Positions 48,875 through 60,003 of a stretch of 64,000 nt of DNA are shown here, piece after piece. Below the pieces are notes generated by a model. That model did no database searches. It was given only the letters and a program-made list of their open reading frames with translations, and was not told the DNA's origin. The stretch comes from Paracidovorax anthurii. GTDB taxonomy: Bacteria; Pseudomonadota; Gammaproteobacteria; Burkholderiales; Burkholderiaceae_C. Position 1 is the first letter of the stretch, and the number at the start of each line of letters is the position of its first letter. Where the stretch lies: NCBI RefSeq assembly GCF_003269065.1, contig NZ_QLTA01000006.1, positions 62,001 to 126,000 of the forward strand, given 5' to 3'. The translations under genes and the position numbers were made by a program.

Positions 48875-49930
48875 TCAGTGCGCCGCGGCCGCCATGGCCT
48901 GCCGGACCCAGCCGTCGAAGGTCTGCTGGTGCGCGCGGATCCAGCCGTCCGCGTGGCGCTCGATGTCGGCCTGCTTGTTCTGGCCGTTCTTCATCGCCAG
49001 GTTCTGCGCGTTGATGTCGCCCACGGGCAATTGCATCGCCTCGAAGAGCTTCGCGGCGGCCGGGTTCTTCTCCGCGAAGGCCTTGTTGGCCACGATGCGC
49101 TGGGTGTTGAGCACGAAGCCGTAGTTCTTGCCGTCCGGCAGCTTCGTGTCGATGCCGGCCTGCTCGCCCGGCAGGGACGAGCGCGGCACCTGCAGCCACA
49201 CCACCTCCTGGCCCGGGCGCAGCACGCCGCTCACCCAGTAGGGCGTCCACGTGTAGTAGAGGATGGGCTGGCCCTGCTTGAAGCGCGTGATGGTGTCGGC
49301 CATCAGCGCCGCATAGCTGCCCTGCACGTGCGTGACCGTGCCGGAGAGGCCGAAGGCCTTCATCTGGTGCTCGATGACGGCCTCGCAGCCCCAGCCGGGG
49401 TTGCAGCCCGTGAGGTCCGCGCGGCCGTCGCCGTTGGTGTCGAAGAGCTTCGCGAGCTTCGGGTCCTTGAGCTGGTCGATGTGCGTGATCTTGTACTGCT
49501 CGGCGGTCTTCCGGTCGATCAGGTAGCCCTGGGTCGCGTTGGTCGAATAGGCGCCCTTGCGCCAAAGCTTCGCGTCGCCGCCCGCGTTCTTGTAGAAGTC
49601 GGCGTGCAGCGGGTCCCAGTGGGCGGCCATGAAGGTCGCGTCGCCGTTGGCGATGGCCACGTGGGCCGTGGCGTACTCGATCTCCTTGATGGGCTGCACG
49701 TCGTAGCCGAGCTTTTGCAGCCCACGCGAGACGAGCAGCGTCTGGAAGGCCTCCTCGGCGTTCGAGCTTTGCAGCGGCTGCACTTTCACGCCCTTGCCGG
49801 GCAGGTCCTGGGCGCGGGCCGCCGGCCCGGCCAGGGCCAGCAGGCCGGCGAGCGCGCAGAGCGCGGCGCCGGCCGCCCGGCGGAGCGAGGCGGGTGCGGG
49901 GTGGGGATGGCGGGTCATGGCAATGGTCAT
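48875..49930 (-). CDS. proX: Glycine betaine/proline ABC transporter substrate-binding protein (ProX-type)
   Basis: Periplasmic receptor of an osmoprotectant importer. A signal peptide ends near [10 protein letters not shown]. The mature protein matches OpuAC/Pro[61 protein letters not shown] and [16 protein letters not shown], whose aromatic residues would form the quaternary-ammonium cage. Three Met codons (49951, 49930, 49918) are possible starts; 49930 has an AGGAA upstream. Last gene of proV-proW-proX, 50 bp after proW. Confidence 0.92.
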
Positions 49931-49980: not shown

Positions 49981-51321
49981 TCAGCGGCCCGAGCCCGCGA
50001 GGGCGGGGCGCTGGCCGGCATGGGGGGCATCGCCGGCCTGCGCGGGGCTTGCGGCCTCCCGCGCGGGGCTGGCTGCAGGGCTGGCGGCCGGCGCCGCAGG
50101 GCGGCGCGGCGCGAGGAGGGCCGCCAGCAGGCCCGCGGGGCCCGTGCGCCACCACTGGCGCGCGCCGCGCCGGGGCTGGCCCAGCGCCTGCGTGAGCCGG
50201 TCCAGCGTGATCGCGAGCAGCACGATGCCCAGGCCGCCCACGGCGGCCAGCCCCATGTCGAGCCGGCCGATGCCGCGCAGCACCATCTGCCCCAGGCCGC
50301 CCACGGCGATCATCGAGGCGATCACCACCATCGAGAGCGAGAGCATCAGCGCCTGGTTGATGCCGGCCATGATCGAGGGCAGGGCCAGCGGCAGCTGCAC
50401 CTTCCAGAGCAGTTGCAGCGGCGAGGCGCCGTAGGCGCGCGCGGCCTCCACCAGATCGGGCCGCACCTGGCGCAGGCCCAGGTTGGTGAGGCGCACCAGC
50501 GGCGGCAGCGCGAAGACGATGGTCACCACCACGCCGGGCACGTTGCCGATGCCGAACAGCATCACCACCGGCACCAGGTACACGAAGGCGGGCGTGGTCT
50601 GCATCGCGTCCAGCGCCGGCCGCAGCAGGCGCTGCGCGCGGTCGCTGCTGGCCAGCAGGATGCCCAGCGGCAGCCCCAGCACCAGGCAGAACGCGAGCGA
50701 GGTGAGCACCAGCGAGAGCGTCACCATCGCCTCCGGCCAGATGCCCAGCATCGCCACCAGCAGCAGCGACACCACGGTGCCCAGGGCCAGCGCGCGGCCC
50801 GCGAACTGCCACGCGATCAGGCCGATCACCGCGATCATGCCCAGCGCGGGCAGGCCCATGAGCACCGACTGCACGCCCGCCAGCGTGGCATCCACCGGCG
50901 CGCGCACGCCCTGGAACATGGGGCGGAAATGCTCCACCGCCCAGGTGAGGCCCTGGTTGATCCAGTGCTCCACGGGCAGCGAGCCGTCCCAGAACTGCGA
51001 CAGGTGCAGGCCGCCGGCCGCCTGGGACGGATCGGCGCCCGCGAGCGCGTCCGGGGCCGCTGCGGCGCCCGCGCCGGGGTCGGGCGCGGCGTTCAGCCAG
51101 TCCGCGCCGCCGCTGCCGTCCGTGCCCCCTGCACTGGTGGAGGCCGCCCAGGGATCGGGCGCGGCCGGCTCCGTGGCGGGCGGTGCCTGCGGCGCATCGA
51201 GGGGCGTGGCGGCGGCCGGGCCGTCGCCCGCCGAGGCCCAGGGGTTGGTGTCCGGCGCCGTCGCGGGCAGGGCGGACGTGGCGCCGGTCTCGGCGGAGGT
51301 GGTCATCGGCGTGGCGTTCAT
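49981..51321 (-). CDS. proW: Glycine betaine/proline ABC transporter permease (ProW-type)
   Basis: Inner-membrane permease, 446 aa. An unusually long, Ala/Pro/Asp/Gly-rich N-terminal region of about 110 residues, with two NPWAS/DPWAAS motifs, precedes the ProW body ([20 protein letters not shown]). The permease domain has [20 protein letters not shown] and the ABC coupling loop [20 protein letters not shown]. It ends in an Ala/Pro-rich tail. The start overlaps proV's end by 4 bp. Confidence 0.92.
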
Positions 51322-52583
51322 GCGGGGCTCCTTGCCGCTTCTGCGGCGGCGGTGGTCGTGGCGGGCGGGGCCGTGGGCGGCAGGGGCGGCGTGTCGCGGT
51401 CGAGGAAGCGCAGCAGCGTGGTCTTGCTGATCACGCCGCGCAGCCGGCCGCCGCCCTCCACCACGGGCAGCGCGCAGGGCGCCTGCGCCACCTGGCCGAA
51501 CAGGTCCGCCACGGGCGCGTCGGCGGCGATCGCGTCCACGCCGGGCAGGTAGGCGTGGTGCAGGCCCAGCGGGCCCACGTGCCCGTCGAGCGCGCCGCGC
51601 AGCGAGTCGGCGGAGACGGTGCCCAGGTACTGGCGCGCGGGGCTCACCACGTAGGCGTAGTCGCGGTCCTGGTCCTGCAGCAGCTGCAGCGCCGCGCGCG
51701 CGCCCCGGTCGCGGTGCTCGGAGACCACGGTGAGCGGGCGCCGCGCGATGTCGCCGGCCTTGAACACGGCCGCCGCGTCCACCCCGCGCACGAAGTCGCG
51801 CACATAGTCGCCCGCCGGGTTGCGCAGGATCTCGTCGGGCGTGCCCACCTGCACCACGTGGCCGTCCTTCATGATCGCAATGCGGTCGCCGATGCGCATG
51901 GCCTCGTCGAGGTCGTGAGAGATGAAGACGATCGTGCGGCGCCGGATCTGCTGCAGCCGCAGCAGCTCGCTCTGCATCTCGGTGCGGATGATCGGATCGA
52001 GCGCCGAGAACGCCTCGTCCATCAGCAGGATCGAGGGGTCCGACGCCAGCGCGCGGGCCAGCCCCACGCGCTGCTGCATCCCGCCCGAAAGCTCGTCGGG
52101 ATAGCTCTGCGCCCAGCAGGCCAGGCCCACCTGCTCCAGCGCGGCGGCGGCCTGGCGCTGGCGCCCGGCGCGGTCCACGCCGGCCAGCTCCAGGCCGAAG
52201 GCGGTGTTGTCCAGCACCGTCATGTGCGGCATCAGCGCGAACGACTGGAACACCATGCTGATGTCCTTGCGGCGCAGCGCGCGCAGCTCGCGGTCCGCGA
52301 GGGCGTTGATGTCGGCACCCTCGACGAGGATGCGCCCGGCGGTGGGCTCGATGAGCCGGTTGAGCATGCGCACCAGCGTCGATTTGCCGGAGCCCGACAG
52401 CCCCATCACGACGAAGATTTCGCCGGCCTCGATGGTGAAAGAGGCGTCGAAGACGCCGATCGACTGCCCGGTGCGCGCCAGGATCTCCTGCTTGCTGCAG
52501 CCCTGGCGCACGAGTTCGAGCGCGGTCTCCGGCGCGTCGCCGAATACCTTGAAAACATGGTCGATGGTGATTTGCTTGGCCAC
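51318..52583 (-). CDS. proV: Glycine betaine/proline ABC transporter ATP-binding protein (ProV-type)
   Basis: ATPase of the osmoprotectant importer, 421 aa. Walker [21 protein letters not shown], signature [20 protein letters not shown] and Walker [14 protein letters not shown] with HDLDEAM are intact. A C-terminal CBS pair (from ~275; [40 protein letters not shown]) can sense ionic strength in related OpuA systems. The GTG at 52583 with GGAGG upstream fits the conserved start [14 protein letters not shown]. First gene of the operon, behind a long leader with a very strong hairpin. Confidence 0.94.
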
Positions 52584-52625
52584 GTCGTGGGTCCTCCCTC
52601 GGTTGGAAACGGGTTGAACGAACAC

Positions 52626-52665
52626 GCCCGGGCAGGCGCTCCATGGGCGGAGCGCCTGCCCGGGC
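52626..52665 (-). promoter_or_regulatory. Perfect 17-bp hairpin in the proV leader
   Basis: GCCCGGGCAGGCGCTCC (52626-52642) and its exact complement (52649-52665) enclose ATGGGC, about 43 bases upstream of the proV GTG. In E. coli the proU leader contains a stem cut by RNase III in an osmolarity-dependent way; this could be an analogue, which is inference. Confidence 0.6.
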
Positions 52666-52977
52666 CCGGGGCCGGTCACGCGGCGGAAAACCTGATGCGG
52701 CGGCGGCGCGCGGCGCGGGCGAAGGCGCCGGCGTCGCCGGAAAACGGTGGGCACGGAGAACGGCCCGGGTTTGGCCCGCATGGCACGCGAAGGCGGTGCG
52801 CAAGGGCAGGGGGCGCGCGCCGGAGAGGTCGGGGCTGCGAGGACTCCGCCGGCGCCCCGCGAAGGGGCATCAGGGCCGGGGACCGGCCATGGTGTCGGCG
52901 GCCGGATGCGGGGCAACGGCGGCCGACGGGGGGATCCAGGCTTGCGGGAAGCGCGGATTACCTGCGCTGCAGGTTGT

Positions 52978-53025
52978 AAAACACCGCGAAAGTGTAGGCA
53001 TTTGGTGTTATTGAGTCAAAACACC
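52978..53025. promoter_or_regulatory. Repeated AAAACACC boxes upstream of proVWX
   Basis: AAAACACC at 52978-52985 and again at 53018-53025, 40 bp apart, with the inverted form GGTGTT at 53004-53009 between them. The surrounding DNA is less GC-rich than average. Candidate binding site for a regulator of the transporter operon. Confidence 0.35.
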
Positions 53026-53092
53026 GGGATTTCGGGATGTGTTACTCGCGGGCGCGGCAAGGGCGCGGACCCGGCCGCGCCGGGCCATGACG

Positions 53093-53112
53093 CTTGCTAT
53101 CTTTTTGATAAC
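53093..53112. repeat. Dispersed TTGCTAT...GATAAC element copy
   Basis: CTTGCTATCTTTTTGATAAC, extended to CTTGCTATC/GATAACAAG (8 of 9 paired). Related to the copies at 3062, 41551 and 60001. Confidence 0.5.
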
Positions 53113-53138
53113 AAGAAAAGTCCATTCCACAACGACAT

Positions 53139-53178
53139 GGGCCCCGGAACACCCGATTTCTCGGGGTTGCCGGGGCCC
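53139..53178 (-). terminator. Long GC-rich hairpin after the UPF0114 gene
   Basis: GGGCCCCGG and CCGGGGCCC form the base of an 18-bp stem with three mismatches, starting 20 bp past the UPF0114 stop. There is no immediate T run, so termination efficiency is uncertain. Confidence 0.45.
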
Positions 53179-53197
53179 GGGAGGCTCGAAGGCGGGC

Positions 53198-53809
53198 TCA
53201 GTGCTTCTCGTGCGACACGTTCAGCAGCCTGTCCGTGTAGGCGATGGCGATCGCGCTCCCCAGGAAGGCCACGTGGATGATCGTCTGCCACATCAGCACC
53301 TTCTCGTCGTAGTTGGCGGCGTTGATGAAGGTCTTGAGCAGGTGGATCGAGCTGATGCCGATGATCGACAGGCCCAGCTTCACCTTCAGCACCGAGGCGT
53401 TCACGTGGCCCAGCCATTCGGGCTGGTCGGGGTGGCTGTGCAGGTTGAGGCGGCTCACGAAGGTCTCGTAGCCGCCCACGATCACCATGATGAGCAGGTT
53501 GGAGATCATCACCACGTCGATGAGCGCGAGCACCACCAGCATGATCACCGTCTCGTTGAGCATGGTGACCTCCACGCCGGGCTTGTAGCCCACGCTGTTG
53601 ACCAGCGCCTGCAGCGCGGTGGTGTTGCCGAAGGCGGCCTCCACCAGGTGCCACAGCTCCACGAGGAAGTGCCACACGTACACGCCCTGGGCGACGATCA
53701 GGCCCAGGTACAGCGGCAGTTGCAGCCAGCGGCTCGCGAAGATCAGCGAGGCGAGGGGGCTCAGGGAAGGGCTCCTGGAATGGGGAGCGTTGGAGTGCGG
53801 AGAAGCCAT
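53198..53809 (-). CDS. UPF0114/YqhA family membrane protein (TIGR00645)
   Basis: 203-aa integral membrane protein of unknown function. Four hydrophobic segments are visible ([80 protein letters not shown]). The family marker [20 protein letters not shown] is intact. The ATG at 53809 gives a usual-length protein with a short Ser/Pro-rich head; longer in-frame extension is not protein-like. Divergent from acs. Confidence 0.88.
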
Positions 53810-54036
53810 GGCGGGGTGGAAAAAGTCCGGGTAGTGCTGCGGTGAGCGGGAGTGCGGCGCGATTCTAGAGCCGATTCCCGGGACATCCCGGTGGCCCGGG
53901 GCGGGGGGCTGTGGTAGGCGTAGCATGTGGGCCGCGAAGGCGTGTGGGCGGTGCTGGAAAAGCGTCAGTGGCGTGTAAGTGCGGCCCCGGAAAGTACGCC
54001 GGAAACCTTTCAAAACGACCCCTGGAGACAAAGCCA

Positions 54037-56031
54037 ATGAGTGCGTCCTCGTCCGCGATCGAATCCGTGCTGGTGGAAAACCGCGTGTTTCCGCCCCCCG
54101 AGGCCTGCGAGAAAGCCGCCCGCATCTCGGGCATGGCCGGCTACGAGGCCCTGCAAGCCGAGGCCGGGCGCGACTTCGAAGGCTTCTGGGCGCGCCTGGC
54201 GCGCGAGAACGTGCGCTGGACCAAGCCCTTCACGCGCACGCTGGACGAATCCAACGCGCCCTTCTTCCAGTGGTTCGCCGACGGCGAACTCAACGCCAGC
54301 GCCAACTGCCTGGACCGCCACGTCGGCACGCCCACCGAGCACAAGACCGCCATCGTCTTCGAGGCCGACGATGGCGCGGTCACCAAGGTCACCTACCGCG
54401 AGCTGCTCGACCGCGTGGGCCGTTTCGCCAATGCGCTCAAGGCCGAGGGCGTGAAGAAGGGCGACCGCGTGCTCATCTACATGCCCATGACCATCGAGGG
54501 CGTGGTCGCCATGCAGGCCTGCGCGCGCATCGGCGCCACGCACAGCGTGGTGTTCGGCGGCTTCTCGGCCAAGGCGCTGCAGGAGCGCATCATCGACGCG
54601 GGCGCGGTGGCCGTCATCACCGCCAACTACCAGATGCGCGGCGGCAAGGAGTTGCCCCTCAAGGCCATCGTGGACGAGGCCCTGGCCATGGGCGGCTGCG
54701 ACACCATCCGCAGCATCCTCGTATACCAGCGCACGGCCACCGCCTGCGCCATGGTGGCGGGCCGCGACAAGACCTTTGGCGACGCCCTGGCCGGCCAGCC
54801 GGCCGAATGCGCGCCCGAACCGGTGGGCGCCGAGCACCCGCTCTTCATCCTCTACACCAGCGGCTCCACCGGCAAGCCCAAGGGCGTGCAGCACGCCACC
54901 GGCGGCTACCTGCTGTGGGCCAAGCTCACGATGGACTGGACCTTCGACCTGAAGCCCGAAGACGTCTTCTGGTGCACGGCCGACATCGGCTGGATCACGG
55001 GCCACACCTACGTGGCCTACGGGCCGCTCGCCGCGGGCGCCACGCAGGTGGTGTTCGAGGGCGTGCCCACGTACCCCAACGCCGGCCGCTTCTGGCAGAT
55101 GATCGAGCGCCACAAGGTCTCCATCTTCTACACCGCGCCCACGGCCATCCGCTCGCTCATCAAGGTGGCCGATGCCGACGAGAAGGTGCACCCCAGGAAC
55201 TGGGACCTCTCCAGCCTGCGCATCCTGGGCAGCGTGGGCGAGCCCATCAACCCCGAAGCCTGGATGTGGTACCACCGTAACGTGGGCGGCGAGCGCTGCC
55301 CCATCGTCGATACCTTCTGGCAGACCGAGACCGGCGGCCACGTCATCACGCCCCTGCCGGGCGCCACGCCGCTGGTGCCGGGCTCGTGCACGCTGCCGCT
55401 GCCGGGCATCGCCGCCGCCATCGTGGACGAGGCGGGCAACGACATCGCCAACGGCACGGGCGGCATCCTGGTCATCAAGCGCCCCTGGCCCAGCATGATC
55501 CGCACCATCTGGAACGACCCCGAGCGCTTCAAGAAGAGCTACTTCCCCGATGAGCTCAAGGGCTACTACCTCGCGGGCGACGGCGCCGTGCGCTCGGCCG
55601 ACCGGGGCTACTTCCGCATCACCGGCCGCATCGACGACGTGCTGAACGTCTCGGGCCACCGCATGGGCACGATGGAGATCGAGTCGGCGCTGGTCGCCAA
55701 GACCGACCTCGTGGCCGAGGCCGCCGTGGTCGGCCGCCCCGACGACGTCACGGGCGAGGCCATCTGCGCCTTCGTGGTCCTCAAGCGCCCACGCCCCACG
55801 GGCGACGAGGCGAAGGCCATCGCCAAGGAACTGCGCGACTGGGTGGCCAAGGAAATCGGCCCCATCGCGAAACCGAAGGACATCCGCTTCGGCGACAACC
55901 TGCCCAAGACCCGCAGCGGCAAGATCATGCGCCGCCTGCTGCGCTCCATCGCCAAGGGCGAGCAGATCACCCAGGACACCAGCACGCTGGAGAATCCTGC
56001 CATCCTGGATCAGTTGGCACAGGCCAACTGA
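54037..56031 (+). CDS. acs: Acetyl-CoA synthetase
   Basis: Activates acetate to acetyl-CoA through acetyl-AMP. The 664-aa chain has the AMP-binding motif [20 protein letters not shown], the block [20 protein letters not shown], and the C-terminal [10 protein letters not shown] with the Lys that is acetylated to switch the enzyme off in known homologues. The ATG at 54037 follows CCTGGAG. The last codons (LDQLAQAN-stop) lie inside a perfect 12-bp inverted repeat, and a copy of this sequence recurs 126 bp downstream. Confidence 0.96.
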
Positions 56032-59970: not shown

Positions 59971-60003
59971 AAAAAAGCCGCACCGGCGACGGTGCGGCTT
60001 TTT
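59971..60003 (+). terminator. Terminator between ilvD and bfr (bidirectional)
   Basis: CCGCACCG (59978-59985), loop GCGA, CGGTGCGG (59990-59997), with AAAAAAG before and CTTTTT after. It can stop ilvD from the left and bfr from the right. Confidence 0.92.

Follow-up and report, generated by a model that had tools for sequence, protein, structure and literature searches.

What is the function of a perfect 17-bp hairpin lying just upstream of proV? The hairpin, here called P10, is part of a 64-kb stretch of DNA (the window) whose genome is nearest to that of Paracidovorax konjaci among the named genomes fetched (ProV identity 92-93%). An earlier note on this DNA had placed it in the leader of a ProU-type operon and suggested a device comparable to the RNase III-processed stem of E. 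coli proU. The operon assignment holds: ProV and the substrate-binding protein encoded downstream exceed the NCBIfam equivalog cut-offs for ProV and ProX, respectively, and the permease matches PF00528 (Table 1). The proVWX genes encode an osmoprotectant (glycine betaine) transporter, and the leader probably controls the timing of its synthesis in many relatives of Acidovorax. To our knowledge, the induction of betaine uptake under salt stress is poorly known outside the enteric group. The names of elements (HA, H4, P1-P10) and of leader types (I and II) were coined in this analysis.

Table 1. Features of the proVWX operon, its predicted promoter and its leader (window coordinates).
Feature	Position	Strand	Sequence, evidence or remark
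-35 hexamer, inferred proV promoter	53014..53019	-	TTGACT; TTGAC-N-(16-18)-TAYNNT scan
-10 hexamer	52991..52996	-	TACACT; spacer 17; transcription start inferred about 52984
Helix HA, inferred 5' end of RNA	52960..52974	-	ACCUGC-AGC-GCAGGU
Helix H4	52874..52888	-	GGCCGG...CCGGCC; final two bases common to P1 5' strand
P1 5' strand	52867..52875	-	(C)CCUGAUGC; 8-pair partner downstream
Optional hairpin P5	52819..52850	-	conserved AGUCCUC...GACCUCU
Helix P6	52773..52808	-	GCCC-UUG-c-GCAC...GUGC-CA-UGC-GGGC; model R1
Helix P7	52749..52766	-	GGGC...GCCC
P1 3' strand	52690..52698	-	GCAUCAGG(U); pairs with P1 5' strand
Helix P10 (hairpin of the earlier note)	52626..52665	-	repeat search, RNA fold, own-arm test
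Strand after P10	52610..52625	-	GUGUUCGUUCAACCCG; many relatives read GNGUUCAAYC or GUGUUCCAUC
Shine-Dalgarno region	52592..52600	-	GAGGGAGGA; sequence
proV (ATPase), GTG start	51318..52583	-	NF007480, 541.8 bits (cut-off 444)
proW (permease), start codon approximate	49981..51312	-	PF00528, E 7e-29
proX (substrate-binding protein), start codon approximate	48875..49930	-	NF008334, 544.5 bits (cut-off 215)

The stem is as perfect and as stable as had been claimed. Its arms, GCCCGGGCAGGCGCTCC (52626-52642) and GGAGCGCCTGCCCGGGC (52649-52665), are 17 nt each and 100% complementary around a 6-nt loop; with arms no more than 60 nt apart, this is the longest fully complementary pair of the window among the matches listed (25 of 29). 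The fold energy of minus-strand RNA from 52570 to 52700 is -69.9 kcal/mol, compared with -53.6±4.0 in dinucleotide shuffles (z = -4.1), a stability matched by 1 of 200 shuffles. P10 lies in the sense leader, 42 nt from the proV GTG (52583), and is the 3'-most element of a 5' leader of roughly 400 nt. A search of the same genome for the stem with a 6-nt loop, allowing up to 3 mismatches, found a single copy, which rules out a mobile or repeated element, and the exact arms of P10 with a loop of 3-9 nt are absent from the other 199 family genomes searched.

The leader begins at a conserved sigma-70-type promoter (53019-52991). The promoter pattern was found in 90 of 126 distinct upstream regions, versus 0.5% of letter shuffles, and in those 90 it lies 263-551 nt from the start codon. 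The region upstream of proV is therefore probably transcribed, as the earlier note had supposed, and the predicted promoter, about 400 nt upstream, puts the transcript start well before P10 and not downstream of 52626. With transcription inferred from this promoter, P10 is a stem in a ProU-type mRNA.

An orthologue of proV (≥83% identity) is present in 16 of 17 genomes of the genus, the window's own included; the seventeenth has paralogue-level matches only. Alignment of 14 leaders from the genus revealed conserved blocks across about 450 nt, starting at the sigma-70-like promoter. In the family, 55 of 299 genomes have a proV match (E ≤ 1e-110). The 142 readable upstream regions included 20 stretches from family genomes and 80 named GTDB loci (the best 80 of 446); some genomes are in both sets, and 126 regions were distinct and long enough. 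We define type I as the 58 distinct leaders that match the genus profile with >40 bits; their hosts are Paracidovorax, Acidovorax, Delftia, Comamonas, Diaphorobacter and kin.

Type I leaders have a recurring series of helices, some with clear compensatory change. A first MAFFT/RNAalifold analysis of all 58 was too gapped for the peripheral helices, many of which vary in length and sequence, and helices were also assessed by an own-arm test, which compares the pairing of a species' own arm with the cross-species mean; its sign tests count related species as independent, and two controls gave 25/58 each. Covariation in the aligned leaders is strongest in P6 (outer pairs, 49/50) and P2 (50/55). 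P6, the best supported helix by these sequence comparisons, was located by its nearly invariant internal loop in 50 of the 58 leaders, and three of the eight missed by the pattern (L110, L128 and L045, the last being G245) are matched by model R1. In an alignment of 45 P6 sequences (44 distinct copies, two of them hand-trimmed, and one typed from L110), 98.0% of 495 cells are paired, versus 93.1% in shuffles; both sides have changed in 7 of 11 pairs, a number reached by none of 500 shuffles, and sliding the partner lowers pairing to at most 38%. Five type I leaders (L094, L098, L112, L125 and L135, from Polaromonas glacialis, two Polaromonas MAGs, a Giesbergeria MAG and Acidovorax sp. SRB_14) retain P5 and have no recognisable P6.

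P1 is a long-range helix, CCUGAUGC with GCAUCAGG, whose strands are about 180 nt apart and enclose P5-P7. For the 5' strand, the best match found downstream pairs at 8/8 positions in 43 of 53 leaders, versus 6% in letter shuffles; one or two pairs are broken in L012, L034 and L035. In L004, L017 and L135 a different site had been picked up by the pattern as 5' strand. When both strands are picked by pattern, a biased choice, 98.8% of cells are paired (50/58 leaders). Most of P1 is conserved in sequence, with compensatory changes in four leaders, three from UA to CG and one from CG to UA (CUCGAUGC with GCAUCGGG in three leaders, UCUGAUGC with GCAUCAGA in one). P1 cells include 17 G-U versus 3 C-A, as expected if the proV-sense strand is the folding strand.

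The other helices are less well supported. HA gives no covariation signal (97.8% of cells paired versus 97.1% when re-dealt, 54/58 leaders scored). In H4, with arms chosen for at least 4/6 pairs, 90.9% of cells are paired versus 77.4% when re-dealt (53/58 leaders), and the position-anchored own-arm test is weaker (35/52). P7 passes the own-arm test in 35/50 leaders, a weak result, and the P5 loop pattern is found in 26/58, one of which (L110) sits elsewhere. On these comparisons P10, P7 and H4 have the least support among the type I helices. Among eight leaders of the same genus, with gaps counted as differences, identity is 92.7% in HA, 89.6% in P6, 80.2% in H4 with the P1 5' strand and 100% in the P1 3' strand (GCCGCATCAGG), against a reference of 73.9% at fourfold sites of proV. 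HA, P6 and the P1 3' strand are thus conserved above the fourfold sites and above P10 (50.2%). The stretch from the strand after P10 to the Shine-Dalgarno sequence (73.0%) is not above the fourfold sites, and the leader as a whole (55.8%) is below them.

At most Paracidovorax proV orthologue loci a stem occurs in the same place as P10 with different bases, e.g., arms GCCCGGAAGGCGAUCCUG/CAGGAUCGCCGCCGGGC, GCCCGGAUGCGCCCUG/CAGGGCGCACCCCGGGC and GCCCCGCCCGCC/GGCGGCCGGGGC. A first stem scan often took competing hairpins and was replaced by the own-arm test, in which the species' own arm pairs better than the cross-species mean in 38 of 49 cases (9 leaders unscored); in the MAFFT alignment the inner arms of P10 are out of register with one another. 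Of the 38 hairpins beside the motif that follows P10, 12 beat all 12 shuffles, in a scan that missed stems ending 3-4 nt earlier; the core of that motif, GNGUU, is present in 38/58 type I leaders. The fully Watson-Crick 17-bp form is found only in the window's leader. L003 has an uninterrupted stem of equal length that includes G-U pairs, and mismatches interrupt the stem in L004 (one), L008, L009 and L012. Altogether, an uninterrupted stem of more than 12 bp near the start codon occurs in 2/58 type I leaders, and the longest is ≤8 bp in 42/58; the long uninterrupted duplex is not retained in the other 56. The alignments thus suggest that P10 retains pairing rather than sequence: many other leaders still have the stem, though its bases have changed. 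That note was right that the hairpin is real and belongs to a ProU-type leader; what it missed is the more important part, that the hairpin is only a part of a long leader RNA with covarying helices.

This RNA is closely tied to proV. Model R1, built on P6, matches 26 of 299 family genomes, once each, and 25 of these matches are directly before proV; the remaining one (G050, L183) is inside a coding frame and is taken as chance. In 399 genomes of the order R1 has five matches, all within the family, and among the 100 loci read (L058-L157) it matches 36 leaders and a weak second place in L058. The many-genome model searches used stricter filters, with which weak matches are lost.

R1 has no match in Variovorax, Roseateles, a Rubrivivax MAG and others, which carry a different conserved leader (type II). 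Its parts include a promoter of the form TTGAC...TATAAT, a hairpin resembling H4, two strands that pair over a long range, a large hairpin and, ahead of the ribosome site, a final stem. The long-range pair (CCACGUCA with UGACGUGG or UGGCGUGG) reaches 8/8 pairs in 10 of 29 leaders, versus 0.6% in shuffles (6 unscored), with a mean of 7.0 pairs versus 5.9. In the large hairpin, of which copies were picked for at least 10/14 pairs, 94.5% of 325 cells are paired, versus 92.7% in shuffles. Both of its sides have changed in 4 of 13 pairs (0/500 shuffles as high), and its covariation score is reached by 18/500 shuffles, which is a moderate excess only. Model R2, built on this hairpin, matches 9 of 299 family genomes, once each and always directly before proV, with no overlap between R2 and R1 genomes. 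Assuming that the same 299 genomes were used throughout, R1 or R2 is found in 34 of the 55 genomes with proV (21 have neither) and in one, by chance, of the other 244. Across 300 genomes of the order, R2 matched a single time (G486, L188); this match overlaps a coding frame, no proV-like frame is listed there, and the match is also regarded as chance. By sequence comparison, types I and II have a similar layout and different sequences, and the leader qualifies as a covarying, proV-linked candidate cis-regulatory RNA family.

Two observations concern leaders further afield. Upstream of proV in Massilia (L156), AAAAGUCCUGAACCCCAGCCUCUUUU resembles the P5 hairpin (AGUCCUC...GACCUCU), and part of the leader RNA may thus reach the Oxalobacteraceae. 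L067 and L073 share CAAGGACTTGCTGGG...CCACATCGCCCG within the last 420 nt before the proV start, possibly representing a third leader type.

How the leader might act on the gene was approached through several read-outs, and neither masking of the ribosome site nor intrinsic termination finds general support in the sequences. In the 58 type I leaders, pairing of the ribosome site is 0.64, versus 0.62 in shuffled leaders, and that of the start codon 0.83 versus 0.80. Terminator-like sites (6 U in 8) occur in 8/58 type I and 2/30 type II leaders, at scattered positions. In the window, P10 and its tail are borderline terminator-like (5 T in 8) and do not combine a GC-rich stem with an immediate U-tract. 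We also rejected pairing of the P5 loop (GUCCUC) with the Shine-Dalgarno sequence (GAGGAC), since the full 6-mer is found in only 15 of the 26 leaders matching the pattern (L110 matching elsewhere) and the loop is retained where the Shine-Dalgarno sequence has changed. A leader peptide was rejected as well: an AUG inside P1 opens frames of 3-130 codons in 49 leaders, and its distance to P6 differs between species by numbers that are not multiples of three.

We consider it probable that the proVWX mRNA has a long, structured 5' leader, that P10 is the terminal stem of this leader, and that the leader RNA acts in cis on the level of the transporter. Control in cis is argued from the linkage to one operon, the leader's own promoter, the covarying fold and the nearly invariant internal-loop bases. 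In this proposal the leader RNA would be transcribed together with proV and fold around P1, displaying the conserved internal-loop bases, those of P6 above all; the displayed bases would bind a ligand, ion or protein that reports the osmotic state, and this signal would set the amount of transporter made. P10 would most likely serve as a structural end-piece beside the ribosome site, free in sequence and usually retaining its pairing. In common with a riboswitch, the RNA lies in the 5' leader of a single kind of gene and has a conserved structure with covariation. A bolder, tentative suggestion is that it represents a new and unusually large riboswitch-like class in the Comamonadaceae, made up of two or more sequence types with a common layout, which senses an osmolyte or the ionic state directly, through the P6 loop and the strand after P10, and sets ProVWX synthesis. 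A covarying leader of such size tied to one operon offers a defined molecule whose response to salt, potassium, betaine and proline can be probed, and two sequence types of similar layout allow testing which unpaired bases are the working site.

Other functions can be imagined for P10 or for the leader as a whole. The RNase III site of E. coli proU is inside the proV coding sequence, not in the leader. P10 could be an RNase III site: under salt the enzyme would be less active, proV mRNA would stay intact and persist, and transporter output would rise, as described for E. coli proU. The perfect 17-bp RNA stem and the equally long, G-U-containing one in L003 suit this idea, as do statements in the available text of PMC4067347 and PMC8708148 that the enzyme acts on E. 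coli proU, betT and proP mRNA. The shortest substrate differs between these sources, 12 bp with a tetraloop sufficing for single-strand cleavage according to the portion of PMC8708148 at hand, and 22 bp being the minimum in that of PMC4067347. The rarity of stems longer than 12 bp (2/58) and the greater conservation of HA, P6 and the P1 3' strand make RNase III cleavage at P10 quite unlikely. An attenuator, in which P10 and its U-containing tail form a weak intrinsic terminator switched by upstream RNA, appears more doubtful still: P10 is the last hairpin before the gene and a pattern scan of the window lists it as terminator-like (GTGTTCGTTC tail), but the tail has few U, many relatives read GUGUUCAACC or GAGUUCAACC, and sites with 6 U in 8 are as few and scattered as described above.

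A GC-rich leader that only protects the mRNA or slows its turnover, with no sensing, would account for the lack of a read-out in our searches and for peripheral helices that vary in length and sequence. We regard this as unlikely, as the nearly invariant P6 internal loop and the retained long-range P1 exceed what mere stability needs, and R1 and R2 both match at proV, bar the two coding-frame matches. A role of the leader as a separate small RNA acting in trans, alone or in addition, is very unlikely: its own promoter and a few hundred nucleotides of structure before the gene would fit, but there is no conserved terminator before proV, and the single match per genome is joined to that gene. 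A DNA-level element, i.e., operator palindromes or a cruciform, is already disfavoured and the least probable of these functions. The hairpin is palindromic and a separate GGTGTT...AACACC repeat overlaps the -35 box; against this, P10 is 50% identical in the genus with pairing usually retained, the reverse of what a protein site would show, and the G-U pairs of P1 lie on the proV-sense strand. A cis-acting leader RNA ending in P10 thus remains our preferred reading.

The leader RNA is apparently undescribed so far. A search of window positions 50000-56000 against Rfam 15 (E up to 5) gave three matches, none in the leader, and eight other loci (E up to 1) gave only a sub-threshold CRISPR-repeat match (24.3 bits, cut-off 39). 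No description of a proV leader RNA like type I or II was found in a literature search that included the accessible parts of PMC8632094, PMC11109978, PMC6429828 and PMC2864571 and was made without the Weinberg 2017 survey and supplements. The nearest functional parallel is the E. coli proU system, with which the leader would share the idea that RNA structure mediates osmotic control of a ProU operon after transcription. RNase III action on proU mRNA is credited to Kavalchuk 2012, as cited in the excerpts of PMC4067347, PMC5371410 and PMC8708148 available to us, and effects of the enzyme on this mRNA are stated in the first and last of these.

Among riboswitch candidates, the proX motif (SRC-29-1; 17 representatives, primarily Spiribacter) is similar in that it precedes a betaine/proline-betaine transporter gene and is a proposed osmoprotectant sensor, according to the part of PMC8632094 available. 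That motif lies before proX and has an occludable ribosome site, whereas the present leader lies before proV, in the Comamonadaceae, and shows no excess pairing of the ribosome site; at about 263-551 nt from promoter to start codon, it is set apart from the proX motif by the descriptions of taxon, gene and size. The opuB motif is likewise a riboswitch candidate before a compatible-solute ABC transporter (PMC11109978, in part); compared by description only, it differs through an unpublished ligand link to shikimate/aromatic metabolism, and the accessible text of that paper has no mention of Comamon, Acidovorax, Delftia or Variovorax. Burkholderiales-1 (Weinberg 2010, PMC2864571) comes from the same order and is a weakly rated RNA candidate with cis-regulation marked uncertain; judged by its table row, it may or may not correspond to the leader.

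Some further elements lie near the operon. An inverted repeat, GGTGTT-N10-AACACC (53004-53025, minus strand), overlaps the -35 box, with 9-bp arms in several relatives, and an extra GGTGTTTT half-site is present beyond the -10; judging from their sequence, repeat and half-site are a possible operator for a regulator. The Delftia promoters listed lack the AACACC arm. At 53139-53178, after a UPF0114/TIGR00645 gene, there is a strong hairpin with 18-nt arms (83% complementary) and no minus-strand U-run, possibly the transcript end of that gene. A textbook terminator-like hairpin reading in both directions (AAAAAGCCGCACCG / CGGTGCGGCTTTTT) is located at 59972-60003.
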